This document shows, one piece after another, positions 4,650 to 15,405 of a DNA stretch of 23,424 nucleotides. This stretch comes from a virus. The notes under the pieces are model-generated. The model made no database searches and was not told the DNA's origin. It was given only the letters and a program-made list of their open reading frames with translations. The stretch covers positions 1 through 23,424 of IMG/VR virus record IMGVR_UViG_3300007539_000232; one strand, written 5' to 3'. Positions within the stretch are counted from its first letter, which is position 1, and every line of letters starts with the position of its first letter. The translations under genes were made by a program, and so were the position numbers.

Positions 4650-7160
4650 TTATACGTTCAACACAGTGCCAGCAGAATCTTTAACAGTAATTCTGTAGTA
4701 AGTTCCTTGCTGACCGTCTAATTTATCTGCATCTAGGTTCGTCACTGTGCTAGTTCCGCTTGCTACAGTAAATGGAACTGTTGCGCCTTGGAAATTGACC
4801 GTAGCTCCATTAGCAGCTGTAAGCGTAGTTCCGCTATTAAAAGTTAAAGTTCCGCTCGTGTAAGCATCAGTGGCGTCGCTACGTAAAAGCGATGCGCCTT
4901 CAATACCGTCAACAGTATCAGCATCAAGTCCGTTTCCAGTTCCTTCATTAGCCGTGGTCAGGACACTGTTACCGCCGACTGTTAATCCAGTAGTAATCTG
5001 AACGCTGGCAGGTAAACCAATAGTGACGTAGCCGCCAGTAGAAGTAACTTCAACTTCATTCGCTGTGCCGTTAATATGGTTATCGAAATCGGAGTCAATT
5101 TGTTGATTGACAAGAGCAGAATCGTATGCGTTAATTTCATTTGGAGCAGCTAAGAAATTAAGCGACCCGCCCATAGCTGAGTGATTCTGACAAACATAAT
5201 ACCAAGCTGTATTTACATCAACGTCCATCGGAACAGTAAAGAAAATATTGCCGTCATCAGCTCCATTATTTACAACGCCGCTATCCGAAGATAAAACATC
5301 ACCCGAAGAATATGCCCCGGAAACTTTTTGAATCCAGAAAGGATGTCCTGATGCAGAAACATCGAATTTGTATGTTTTACCTCTAGCAAGAGCAATCGAA
5401 GGATTATTTGTCGATGCAGGGAAGCCATCTCCAGTAAATACATATGCACTGCTAAGACCATTATCTACAACTTGGAAAATAGATTCTGGCGGTCTTTTTA
5501 ACGAAATATAATCAGAGTCAATTAATGCTAATGTATCCGAATCGCTTCTCGCTTTAGTGTAAAACTTGTAAGTAGCGTCTTCGAATGAGGTTAAGTTTGT
5601 TAAAGTTTCGCTAGTAGCAGCTCTTACGTTCGCTAAAGTGAAAGCTGTAAGCCCAGAAGCTGTCGCATCAAGGTCTAAATGGTCAACTGCAATACCGCCA
5701 TTTTCTTGTTTTACCCGTAAACCTGATCCTGTAATTTCAAGAGAAACGTCAGCGACGTCAACTCGAAGTTCCCCAGAAGTAATTTCAAGCCCAGAGGTAC
5801 CTGCTAAGTCGACATCTAAACGGTTGCCTGTTTTACTTAAACCATCTCCAGCTGTAATTTGTCCAGCACCAGAGAACTGAGTAAATAAGATAGCGCTGTC
5901 GCCAACCTGACCTACATGCGATTCAGTTTGAACAAATCCGGCTGATGCATTAACAGTGCCATCAATTACGAAGATAAAGTCGCCGCCTGCAACCTCAACA
6001 TCTGTATCAAAATCGTCAGCCCTCGTAATTCTTTGTGCTGAATCCCAAACATAAACACCATTGTGATTTGAATTTGTTTGGTTTTTAATTAACAGTCTAT
6101 CATTGGTCTGCAGCGCAATACCGTCAATCGAATCTAGGGAGCCTGTAATTTGCAAAAATGCACCGACCCCTAAAGTACCGCTATCATAAGCAACAGATGT
6201 TACTTTGACATCGGTCGTAAGATCTTGAACTGTAGCAACTCTGGCAGCTTCATGAATATGCAACCCTTCAGATACGGCATCTACATAAGCTTTGTTTGCT
6301 GCATCAGTATCATTAACTGGCGTAGCAACATCTTGAATGGTTCTATTTACAACAGAAATACCTGTTGGCTGGGAAATAATTAAATAATCTGAGTCTGCAG
6401 TATCATGAATTACAAAACGTATACCGCCATCCGTAGCATGAGCATGAGAATGAATCACGAGCCCGTTTTCAGTATCACCTTCAAGATGCGCTACTTCCTG
6501 ACCATTAGCGGAGTCATAGATTTTGAACTGAGCTGTAGAAGTAACGTTTGAAAATAGAACATCATCCGTAGAACTAATAGCCTGACCGACACTTATGACG
6601 CCGCCAACGCTATCATAAACAACACCTGTGCCTGCAACTAATCTTCCTCTTACAAAAGCAGAATCGACAGAAATTGTTTGTGCTACGCCCTCACCCGCAG
6701 CCGATAATGGTTTAATACCAGGACCAGCTGTAGTAGATTGTACATAATTTCCTGAAGTGTTAGTCGTAAGGGCAATCGTAGGAAGACGATTAATCGAGAC
6801 TGTACCAGCAGTAATATCTTCTCCAGCTAAACTCGGTATACGAGCCGAGTCAAAAGTTCCTGTTACAATGTCAGAAGTTGCTAAGGAAGGTATTCTGGCA
6901 GAATCAATAGAACCTGTAACAATATCAGCAGTCGATAAAGAAGGAATTCTTGCAGAATCGAAAGTGCCCGTCACAACATCAGAAGTCGCTAACGATGGCA
7001 CTCTTGCGGAATCAATAGTCCCGCTCAAATTAGAAGCTGGTACATCGCCTGTAATTGTTCCAGTAACAGAAAGATCTCCGGTGATGTTTGCACCGGAGTC
7101 TACAATTATACCTTTTTTGACTTCTAAATCATCATTAACAATGAAATTCTTTTCTGCCAT
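4650..7160 (-). CDS. Modular tail fibre protein with N-terminal 18-residue repeats and a cupredoxin-like domain
   Basis: The 836-residue fibre-like protein has no signal peptide or membrane segment. After a short N-terminal beta segment, residues 47-136 hold tandem 18-residue repeats built on FDSARIPSLATSDIVTG. The central part is fibre-type beta sequence containing NRTIQDVATPVNDTDAANKA (a common phage fibre motif). Residues about 570-672 form a cupredoxin-like domain with His606, Cys657, His660 and Met663. The C-terminus carries LDADTVDGIEGASLLRSDA and LDADKLDGQQGTYYR, a pair often seen near the ends of marine phage fibres. Part of the C-terminal region (GTANEVEVTSTGG onward) recurs in the upstream 969-residue fibre. 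It precedes gp13, the place of wac and gp12 in T4. An AAGGAC ribosome binding site precedes the ATG. Whether it is a long fibre, whisker or other appendage cannot be decided. Confidence 0.8.
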   Translation of the reverse strand: MAEKNFIVNDDLEVKKGIIVDSGANITGDLSVTGTITGDVPASNLSGTIDSARVPSLATSDVVTGTFDSARIPSLSTADIVTGSIDSARIPSLATSDIVTGTFDSARIPSLAGEDITAGTVSINRLPTIALTTNTSGNYVQSTTAGPGIKPLSAAGEGVAQTISVDSAFVRGRLVAGTGVVYDSVGGVISVGQAISSTDDVLFSNVTSTAQFKIYDSANGQEVAHLEGDTENGLVIHSHAHATDGGIRFVIHDTADSDYLIISQPTGISVVNRTIQDVATPVNDTDAANKAYVDAVSEGLHIHEAARVATVQDLTTDVKVTSVAYDSGTLGVGAFLQITGSLDSIDGIALQTNDRLLIKNQTNSNHNGVYVWDSAQRITRADDFDTDVEVAGGDFIFVIDGTVNASAGFVQTESHVGQVGDSAILFTQFSGAGQITAGDGLSKTGNRLDVDLAGTSGLEITSGELRVDVADVSLEITGSGLRVKQENGGIAVDHLDLDATASGLTAFTLANVRAATSETLTNLTSFEDATYKFYTKARSDSDTLALIDSDYISLKRPPESIFQVVDNGLSSAYVFTGDGFPASTNNPSIALARGKTYKFDVSASGHPFWIQKVSGAYSSGDVLSSDSGVVNNGADDGNIFFTVPMDVDVNTAWYYVCQNHSAMGGSLNFLAAPNEINAYDSALVNQQIDSDFDNHINGTANEVEVTSTGGYVTIGLPASVQITTGLTVGGNSVLTTANEGTGNGLDADTVDGIEGASLLRSDATDAYTSGTLTFNSGTTLTAANGATVNFQGATVPFTVASGTSTVTNLDADKLDGQQGTYYRITVKDSAGTVLNV
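5145..5453 (-). other. Cupredoxin-like domain inside the fibre protein
   Basis: Residues about 570-672 of the 836-residue fibre read like a plastocyanin-type beta sandwich: a FTGDGF strand, ALARGKTYKFDVSASGHPFW with His606, a long loop, a FFTVPMD strand and YYVCQNHSAMGG with Cys657, His660 and Met663. The ligand order His...Cys-x2-His-x2-Met and the 51-residue distance from the first His to Cys are close to plastocyanin, where the distance is 47 (His37, Cys84). The His-to-Met spacing is shorter than plastocyanin and resembles the CuA His-x2-Met. The fold is assigned with fair confidence; copper binding is inference. Confidence 0.7.
6753..7022 (-). repeat. Tandem 54-base repeat coding for 18-residue units
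   Basis: Four consecutive units of 54 bases (7022-6807) encode the pattern G-[TS]-[IF]-D-S-A-R-[IV]-P-S-L-[AS]-[TG]-x-D-[IV]-[VT]-[TA], followed by a diverged fifth unit ending near 6753. The repeats are in frame with the 836-residue fibre gene, at residues 47-136. Units differ mostly at conservative positions, so the array is an old but coherent duplication. It probably forms a repetitive beta or trimeric shaft segment. Confidence 0.9.
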
Positions 7161-13839: not shown

Positions 13840-14064
13840 TTATTTTCCATCATCAGTCATTCTTGTAATTAAATCTTTTAACAAAGATTCAATGGTATCC
13901 ATTCGCTGCTCAATGCGTTCAATTCTATTTTGTTCTTTCTTCTTTGCTTCTTTTTGAGCTCTTGCCTTCATCAAAGCGTTTTTATCGGTATTTATAATCG
14001 CATTTGATGATGCATCCCTAAAAAGGCCATTCGAATTTTCAACTGGAATAAGTTTCTTGCTCAT
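13840..14064 (-). CDS. Small coiled-coil protein conserved in T4-like marine phages
   Basis: The 74-residue protein begins MSKKLIPVENSNGLFRDASS, then NAIINTDKNALMKARAQKEA. It finishes with a charged helical segment, IERIEQRMDTIESLLKDLI at about residues 49-67, with a clear heptad pattern. I associate the N-terminal L-x-x-V-x-x-x-x-x-L-x-R-D-x-x-x-x-A-I-[IL]-N pattern with a small conserved protein of T4-like cyanophages of unknown function. The start overlaps the stop of the glycosyltransferase gene as ATGA, with no strong ribosome binding site, so it is probably translated by coupling. A multimeric adaptor or chaperone is conceivable given the coiled coil and location, but nothing in the sequence proves it. 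Confidence 0.7.
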   Translation of the reverse strand: MSKKLIPVENSNGLFRDASSNAIINTDKNALMKARAQKEAKKKEQNRIERIEQRMDTIESLLKDLITRMTDDGK

Positions 14065-14786
14065 GCTACAGATATTGTTTTCGAATAGTGGTAAATAATA
14101 ATTTCGTCTTCTTCATTTATATGCTTTGCCTTTTGATACAAGGGTAACCAATTCCATAATATGTCATTTGGAAAAAAGTCATATTTTAGTTTGTATTTAT
14201 TCCATTCTTTATTCGTTAGCCACCAAAGCGAGAATTGATCCCATGCCCTAAATCTTATTGGGTAAAGTTCTAAATCAGGCCACCATTTTTTGTCTCTAAT
14301 TTTTTTATCTAATTTGTACCAATCTGACATAAATTTTTTAGCTGAAGACTTGTACAAGCAAATCCCGCCGTGTAATTTAAATTCGCCACCAGGGAATACT
14401 CTGTTATTACCATGCTTATGGTTGTATGCGTACTCTTGTTCTTTGGTGATCCTTGTCCAAAGCATATCATTGTTGCCAATTAAATCGAAAACTTCAGAAA
14501 ATTGATCATTCACAACAGCCATATCGCAATCCATATAAAGCGTTAAATCATAGGGACTGTTGGCCATTGCCCATAATTTTGTTCTATATTCATTTGGACA
14601 TTCTGTGATAACATTTTCAAACAAATTATTATGTGATTCATCATGATAATCTGCGTTAGTAAACAGAGTTATTTTAGCGTCAGGTAAATATTCTTGAATT
14701 GTATTGGCGCAAAATATTGCTTTTAAATAATATTCTCTGTTAAGGGTCGCAACAAGAACAACGCCTTTACTCAAAATCCAGCTCAT
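14061..14786 (-). CDS. GT8-like glycosyltransferase (GT-A fold)
   Basis: The 241-residue protein has the layout of a GT-A nucleotide-sugar transferase related to family 8. Residues 8-16 (GVVLVATLN) form the first beta strand and nucleotide-binding region. LYMDCDMAV at 83-91 holds the Asp86-x-Asp88 metal-binding motif. HGGICLY at 139-145 matches the acceptor-side strand (family pattern N-x-G). WDQ at 182-184 is the usual Asp-Gln, and IIIYHYS with His233 is the C-terminal metal ligand position. It would transfer a sugar from a nucleotide donor; donor and acceptor are unknown. It lacks a signal peptide or membrane anchor. It overlaps the oxygenase-like gene by 20 bases and the small coiled-coil gene by four, and lies among virion genes. 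A fibre or tail protein acceptor is plausible inference. Confidence 0.72.
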   Translation of the reverse strand: MSWILSKGVVLVATLNREYYLKAIFCANTIQEYLPDAKITLFTNADYHDESHNNLFENVITECPNEYRTKLWAMANSPYDLTLYMDCDMAVVNDQFSEVFDLIGNNDMLWTRITKEQEYAYNHKHGNNRVFPGGEFKLHGGICLYKSSAKKFMSDWYKLDKKIRDKKWWPDLELYPIRFRAWDQFSLWWLTNKEWNKYKLKYDFFPNDILWNWLPLYQKAKHINEEDEIIIYHYSKTISVA

Positions 14787-15405
14787 TTTTTAGATTTTCC
14801 CACATATATGCGCTATTGTCATCAGGCAAAAAACGCCAAGCTAGACTAATACGTAAACAATTGGTGTAAGCCGCATGATAAAAAGGAGGCTTGTCTTCTG
14901 TGTATGATGGAAAATATGACATCTTAATTTGCCAGCCAGGAACATCCTGAACTTTTACTGTGTTGTTATTTTCATCACGGTATAGAAAATATCCATCGCC
15001 TGTTTCTGACCAAGTCGCTAACAGATTATATCCAGGAGCATCAGCATTATTATGCCAAGAAATTCCTCCTTCGGGTGGATAAAGCGCAGCTAAAGGGCAA
15101 TGATAAGTGCCTAAAAAGGTTTGCATTTCTCTATGCAAAGGGGCAAGCTCGGTTGAGATTTCTAACGCTTTGTCATCATTTATTAGCCGTAACATATAAT
15201 CAACTTCTGGCTTACCTTTATGTAAGGTATGTTGTTTTATAATATAATCACAGTATTTTTCTGATACATGAGTTTTATCAAAATTTTGATGATTAATAAA
15301 TTCCAGAGATTCTTTGTTTGTTTTATACCACTCTAATATAATCGAAGAAAAATTATTTAAATATTCATTAAATTCTTTATTCTTCGATGTCACCTGTGTC
15401 AGCAT
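14767..15405 (-). CDS. Double-stranded beta-helix protein, 2-oxoglutarate/Fe(II) oxygenase-like
   Basis: The 212-residue protein has a helical N-terminal half and a C-terminal jelly-roll pattern. GGISWHNNADAPGYNLLATW at 113-132 is followed by GYFLYRDENN, then GWQIKMSYFPS, FYHAAYT and LRISLAWRF. This order closely resembles a family of marine phage proteins annotated as 2OG-Fe(II) oxygenases (Trp-His-x-Asn...His...Arg-x-Ser). Candidate metal ligands are His118, Asp122 and His177; Arg185 could bind 2-oxoglutarate. The His-x3-Asp spacing is not the canonical His-x-Asp, so activity is uncertain. It overlaps the coiled-coil gene upstream by 29 bases and the glycosyltransferase by 20. The start is favoured by a GGAAGAAAAG sequence. 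The substrate is unknown; hydroxylation of a virion protein or a sugar are both possible. Confidence 0.6.
   Translation of the reverse strand: MLTQVTSKNKEFNEYLNNFSSIILEWYKTNKESLEFINHQNFDKTHVSEKYCDYIIKQHTLHKGKPEVDYMLRLINDDKALEISTELAPLHREMQTFLGTYHCPLAALYPPEGGISWHNNADAPGYNLLATWSETGDGYFLYRDENNNTVKVQDVPGWQIKMSYFPSYTEDKPPFYHAAYTNCLRISLAWRFLPDDNSAYMWENLKNELDFE

Follow-up and report, generated by a model that had tools for sequence, protein, structure and literature searches.

Among the cupredoxins, rusticyanin is a periplasmic electron carrier, amicyanin has methylamine dehydrogenase as its partner, and plastocyanin is marked by a Cys-x2-His-x4-Met loop. In viruses, a copper nitrite reductase has been reported as a metabolic gene and not as a part of the virion, as far as the available portion of that report goes, and the available portion of another account describes iron in phage fibres, which is suggested to take part in metal cycling or in contact with the host (PMC11705849). 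Here we describe a virus record of 23,424 bases (IMG/VR record IMGVR_UViG_3300007539_000232; "the window" denotes this whole stretch), which encodes a fibre-like structural protein of 836 residues. Sequence comparison and structural modelling identify in this predicted virion fibre protein a genuine cupredoxin domain that has all four type 1 ligands (His, Cys, His and Met) and a ligand loop of amicyanin length. The coordinates of the domain, its ligands and the surrounding features are collected in Table 1.

Table 1. Position of the cupredoxin domain, its four ligand residues and other parts of the carrier protein in the window
Feature	Position	Strand	Basis
Cupredoxin domain, about 114 residues (557-670)	5151..5492	minus	homology limits; AlphaFold2 model; fold matches to cupredoxins
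His606, predicted first ligand, within G-H-P-F	5343..5345	minus	invariant in 40/40; aligns with the His of rusticyanin G-H-S-F
Cys657, predicted thiolate ligand, sole Cys of the 836-residue protein	5190..5192	minus	invariant in 40/40
His660, predicted second His ligand	5181..5183	minus	invariant in 40/40
Met663, predicted axial ligand	5172..5174	minus	invariant in 40/40
Fibre-like structural protein, 836 residues, carrier of the domain	4650..7160	minus	open reading frame; PHROG families matched: tail fibre, head decoration, gp9 connector
Module common to phage fibre and decoration proteins, residues 266-518	5607..6365	minus	phrog_30390 and phrog_2647; tblastn to the S-CAM9 tail fibre and others
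C-terminal region that follows the domain, residues 671-836	4653..5150	minus	sequence; without any best-scoring family stretch in the family searches

An earlier note, made from the letters of this DNA, had pointed to these four residues in a tail fibre domain with a first-His-to-Cys distance of 51. Both the positions and the distance were confirmed, and all four residues lie inside one domain. The span proposed at the time (5145-5453, residues 570-672) misses the first strand, and the domain starts at about residue 557 (5492). The loop had been described as intermediate between plastocyanin and CuA, which we could not uphold, as Cys-x2-His-x2-Met is the spacing of amicyanin and is seen in the aligned amicyanin chains. 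The distance from the first His to the Cys ranges from 41 to 65, with a mode of 47, in the 205 rows that read HCHM. In the 18 open reading frames (ORFs) of the window taken as genes (7,560 residues), C-x2-H-x2-M occurs once, against about 0.003 occurrences expected from composition. Chance clustering of the four residues was rejected on the basis of this expectation and of their intact conservation when the ligands are masked in the search profile. In addition, 177 of 184 copies of the domain contain one Cys only; a lone Cys in an extracellular domain is unusual unless it is used, and we therefore count this for a working site.

Two alignments were used for comparison, A1 with nine sequences, the window included, and A2 with the window domain and 39 viral relatives (40 sequences). 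An AlphaFold2 model of residues 553-673 calculated from A2 has eight strands, with a mean predicted local distance difference test score (pLDDT) of 95.4 and a predicted template modelling score (pTM) of 0.88. According to DSSP, the model places the first His just before a strand and the Cys at a strand end, followed in the next loop by the second His and by Met, the same placement relative to the strands as in cupredoxins. A Foldseek search of the PDB gave 1026 matches, 24 of them at E ≤ 0.001; the best 50 of the 1026 are by title all cupredoxin-type copper proteins and cytochrome-oxidase subunit II domains, with nitrite reductase 2dv6 (E 2.6e-5) and rusticyanin as leaders. VIA-align likewise ranked residues 24-134 of 2dv6 at the top (Z 11.1, root-mean-square deviation 2.0 over 96 residues), followed by rusticyanin (Z 8.9-10.2) and small laccases. 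The cupredoxin-like fold that the earlier note had supposed is thus borne out by the predicted structure and its matches. A fold match by itself says nothing on function, and our argument rests on the common ligand residues. The fold matches of the model in BFVD include proteins named "Beta-sandwich" from Pithovirus and Marseillevirus records (ranks 20, 23, 25, 29 and 34). In a second AlphaFold2 model, of a gp9-like protein of 498 residues, the prediction was of low quality apart from the cupredoxin domain (mean pLDDT 60, pTM 0.32).

Profile searches also lead to copper proteins. With A1 as the query against the PDB, the first eight rows consist of nitrite reductases, amicyanins, azurin, rusticyanin and plastocyanin (E 0.0017-0.014). 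The A2 profile matched 27 sequences at E ≤ 0.1, copper proteins only, with rusticyanin at the top (E 0.001), and its alignment sets the four residues in register with the His, Cys, His and Met of rusticyanin. Hemolin (E 0.0014), which came up in a single-sequence search of the PDB, was treated as a chance match of another beta-sandwich. When the 40 members of A2 were compared with NCBIfam, the amicyanin model matched four (best 8.7e-7, the best curated match), plastocyanin three and halocyanin three. The Pfam model Copper-bind (PF00127) matched five of the nine A1 members at E ≤ 1 and six of the 40 A2 members at E ≤ 0.01; its curated cut-off is passed in the proximal tail fibre of P-SSM2 (23.3 vs 21.2 bits) and in one Bacteroidetes protein, the passing relatives being L005 and L203. 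Three related classes do not describe the domain: the x2/x2 spacing of its loop is not that of plastocyanin; a CuA domain needs two bridging Cys and there is one Cys in the entire 836-residue protein; and multicopper oxidases carry HLHGH-type trinuclear-cluster histidines after the first type 1 His, a region that here reads GHPFWIQ.

The four residues are invariant in all aligned sequences of A1 (9/9) and A2 (40/40), the window being included in both. A tblastn search of 50,697 phage records detected the domain in 218 of them at E ≤ 0.01, in no case with 60% identity or more, and in 264 when the limit was E ≤ 10; by name the 218 records divide into 188 Synechococcus, 15 Prochlorococcus, 11 Cyanophage, three Marine and one Actinomycetia. 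Twenty-four phage loci, picked from 120 of the tblastn matches for diversity and weak scores, were read (eight with better scores and a further 16, often weak and reaching an E of about 3), and every one carries the four residues, although the loop of L184 is longer by one residue. A scan of viral contigs with patterns taken from the half of the domain that precedes any ligand is a stricter test than tblastn, whose scores count ligand residues. This ligand-free scan gave 80 loci with 52 distinct sequences, 51 of which read H...C-x2-H-x2-M and one C-x3-H-x2-M. A search profile with the four ligand columns masked, run over the sequences fetched to that point (rows with fewer than 90 match columns dropped), retained 184 distinct domains with a median column identity of 61%: 181 read HCHM, one has C-x2-H-x3-M (L184), one bacterial copy (L187) has Gln for Met and another (L218) has lost all four residues.

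Altogether, the ligand set is complete in 148 of 148 distinct viral copies (147 by column, and L184 with its one-residue loop insertion). By origin, with duplicates credited once, 70 copies came from a scan with a C/H/M pattern, 53 from the ligand-free scan and 24 from tblastn; the 70 are uninformative on C, H and M, and the 78 others were fetched without such a pattern. The patterns of the genome scan contained ligand residues, so that its 36 distinct copies are partly biased. Retrieval bias as the only source of the conservation was rejected on the strength of the ligand-free scan and, less strictly, of the tblastn set. A pattern check of the copies missed one, L176; by eye it has all four residues (T-H-A, then C-x2-H-x2-M). 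The complete His-Cys-His-Met set of type 1 copper proposed in the earlier note therefore holds, as it aligns with the ligands of rusticyanin and is kept in all viral copies examined.

Losses of the set were found among bacteria. In the genomes of one bacterial order, 31 of 296 gave a match at E ≤ 0.001. We assembled a combined set of 220 domains, in which rows with fewer than 75 match columns or with masked letters were dropped; the short rows dropped include L195, a truncated copy with its distal part unaligned, and L264, which is without Cys. The ligand set is complete, with four loop lengths, in 206 of the 220, two have Gln for Met and 12 have no Cys. The Cys-less rows comprise ten from two very similar genomes, mainly in tandem-repeat proteins and with one stretch entering the count twice, the bacterial copy L218, in which all four residues are lost, and L270, a doubtful member of the set; the 11 other than L270 are also without the distal His and the Met at the aligned positions. 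No row of the 220, the two Gln copies aside, retains the Cys-His-Met group in part. The residues thus stay together in the viral copies, and Cys, distal His and Met are lost jointly in a few bacterial ones, which answers a question on co-variation put by the earlier note; Cys and His positions free to vary in homologues that keep the fold were sought and not found. The tandem cupredoxin-like repeats of the bacterial loci L262 and L263 have Ser in place of Cys, Asp, Thr or Asn in place of the distal His, and Val, Ile, Leu or Lys in place of Met.

This pattern of conservation and joint loss fits a working metal site better than residues kept for packing. It is unlikely, in our judgement, that the domain takes up another metal (zinc, or copper by accident) or none in nature, its conserved residues serving the packing of the sandwich. 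The high confidence of a model built without any metal would suit such a domain, and so would the assembly of fibre proteins in the cytoplasm, since most bacteria keep little free copper there. However, the residues between Cys and His and between His and Met vary while the four ligands do not, the losses take Cys, distal His and Met together, and the Gln that replaces the axial Met in two copies is a change known from stellacyanin. The locus L187 (Acidobacteria, 6001-6282) has Gln at the axial position.

The proteins that carry the domain are diverse. The baseplate wedge tail fibre connector, gp9, is the most frequent annotation in the best 60 of the 218 tblastn records, many of which are isolates of a single phage species, and in the four phages checked the domain forms the C-terminal end of gp9, encoded behind gp7 or a large structural gene. 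The proximal tail fibre of P-SSM2 has two copies of the domain, and further viral carriers are gp7 of P-HM1, S8-protease proteins linked to fibres, and collagen-like fibres. We counted 185 viral ORFs with the domain, which were not made distinct and represent some contigs twice: 103 have collagen-like runs, a number raised by the selection of the ligand-free scan, 13 have more than one copy, and in 29 of the 99 complete ORFs the domain ends at most 25 residues from the end. Five of eight bacterial and archaeal proteins carry DUF7282, CHRD, InlB-like repeats, NHL repeats or a secretion-system sorting tail, and 30 of 40 genome loci belong by title to Bacteroidetes. A search of 72,556 plasmid records gave no match at E ≤ 0.01, and a single-sequence scan of viral contigs found no relative. 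The domain is therefore a movable module of virion fibre and baseplate proteins and of apparently secreted bacterial proteins, and does not belong to one machine. A gene annotated PetE in Synechococcus phage S-SCSM2R (L008:3773-4279) is a stand-alone copy of the domain adjoining an S8 protease gene, and is probably not a photosynthetic plastocyanin.

The same distribution bears on a possible role in host contact, in which the copper-loaded domain would dock on a copper-handling surface protein of the host, as has been proposed for iron and siderophore receptors. The intact ligands of all viral copies would suit such a metal-requiring function. There are precedents in the available portions of two accounts, one on phage fibres that contain iron and on the Trojan Horse idea (PMC11705849), the other on the binding of azurin, a copper-binding cupredoxin, to the TonB-dependent copper transporter OprC of Pseudomonas aeruginosa (PMC6907878). 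In contrast, the domain often lies away from fibre tips, at the C terminus of gp9, mid-protein in collagen-like fibres, in S8 proteases and in gp7; it occurs in phages of cyanobacteria as well as of an actinobacterium; and no receptor is known. We consider copper-dependent docking a doubtful explanation.

The 18 genes of the window are all on the minus strand and appear to be a T4-like structural cluster, which encodes a head-tail adaptor Ad2 and a head closure protein Hc2 (PHROG matches) as well as a protein of 1,686 residues with 27-33% identity to 12 phage relatives among the matches listed, including the Pelagibacter phages HTVC008M and Mosig. We recognised no redox partner among the searched genes of the window, and this speaks against a redox or reactive-oxygen role, in which cycling between Cu(I) and Cu(II) would protect the virion or sense contact with the cell. 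Such a role is highly unlikely in our estimation, although electron-transfer copper proteins have this same ligand set. The broader proposal that aquatic phages, many cyanophages included, bear copper-loaded tail cupredoxins used in infection, for docking on a copper-handling surface protein of the host or as a redox trigger, would parallel for copper the Trojan Horse idea put forward for iron, and appears quite improbable.

Other features of the window were noted in passing. Upstream of the domain, the 836-residue protein contains H-S-H-A-H (residues 237-241, 6438-6452) and H-I-H (residues 301-303, 6252-6260); HxH motifs in T4 gp37 bind iron, according to the available part of the account (PMC11705849). 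Two genes in the fibre gene cluster, 14061-14786 and 14767-15405, gave no Pfam match at E ≤ 0.01; by eye, their products look like a glycosyltransferase and a 2-oxoglutarate oxygenase. The protein of 884-1732 contains S-S-G-H-D-S-G-V, which we take to be reminiscent of the PP-loop ATPase motif, and has no Pfam or PHROG match at E ≤ 0.01.

On balance, we consider it rather likely, and the most likely of the readings, that this is a one-copper domain acting as a metal-stapled spacer or adhesion module of the fibre. Each chain would bind one copper ion, acquired in the lysing cell or from the water, and the metal would staple the exposed beta-sandwich, keeping it rigid and long-lived outside the cell; electron transfer would not be required. 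The conservation implies a function that depends on the whole site, from which we infer copper binding, and carriers so varied point to a general task such as that of a stapled module. Judged from sequence and model, the virus particles may well carry copper.

Several observations weigh against this assignment. Pro directly follows the first His in 196 of 205 copies, a position usually occupied by Asn or Ser (second shell) in small blue copper proteins. The E-values of the profile matches in the PDB are modest (0.001-0.01), and the A1 list to E ≤ 10 also contains non-copper proteins (LptD and a retinoic-acid-binding protein). At E ≤ 0.01, 34 of the 40 relatives are without a Copper-bind match, and the Pfam model with the most matches among the 40 is the At5g54830-like domain (8/40, best 1.4e-6). 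The window protein and the domain alone have no copper match in Pfam or NCBIfam (PF00127 none; TIGR02657 none at E ≤ 0.01), and we therefore class this copy among cupredoxin domains that carry the type 1 ligands and not under those models. The joint loss is seen in only about two bacterial lineages and represents few independent events, and five of the 12 Cys-less rows still have the first His. Finally, apo-plastocyanin (2pcy) is among the fold matches. As apo-cupredoxins fold without metal, stability alone may not explain the strict conservation, and the docking and redox roles stay in play for this reason.

The cupredoxin itself is known; the novelty lies in its place in a virion fibre, together with ligands that are conserved without exception across the viral copies examined. 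Text searches of the openly licensed literature gave no description of a cupredoxin domain in virions, and absence there is not absence in print. Databases partly label the domain (Copper-bind in P-SSM2, PetE in S-SCSM2R), and the annotations of the phage records examined mostly leave it unnamed, so that even without copper a domain has been identified that those annotations pass over. If copper is present, the virions of well-known marine cyanophages would be blue-copper particles. In T4, gp9 is a trimer on each of the six baseplate corners, and the same arrangement of a gp9-type carrier would amount to about 18 copper ions per particle, bearing in mind that the window protein matches gp9 only in part. 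Copper would then join the iron reported for phage fibres, as a metal-dependent stability or adhesion handle.

Compared with known systems, the domain is nearest to amicyanin by its loop and to rusticyanin and the 2dv6 domain by its fold. With the amicyanin and plastocyanin-azurin class (PF00127; TIGR02657) it shares the eight-stranded beta-sandwich and, with amicyanin, the loop spacing; members of that class are free electron carriers, whereas here the domain is a module of a long virion protein with Pro after the first His. Rusticyanin and the first cupredoxin domain of the Hyphomicrobium nitrite reductase (2dv6) are the best fold and profile matches; G-H-P-F of the window stands where rusticyanin has G-H-S-F, with the four residues in register, although the Cys-His-Met loop of rusticyanin is longer. 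The HxH motifs that bind iron in phage tail fibres (T4 gp37; R22Y) offer a parallel as a putative metal site in a virion fibre, with another metal and another motif, and the available part of that account contains no cupredoxin (PMC11705849). A viral counterpart is the cyanophage gp9 connector (phrog_677), the C-terminal part of which is the same domain (window domain against profile positions 303-407 of 412, E 2.3e-26). The window protein does not match this profile over its whole length: it is twice as long as gp9, the domain is internal, and the best stretch corresponds to positions 279-407 of 412, leaving the N-terminal two thirds uncovered.

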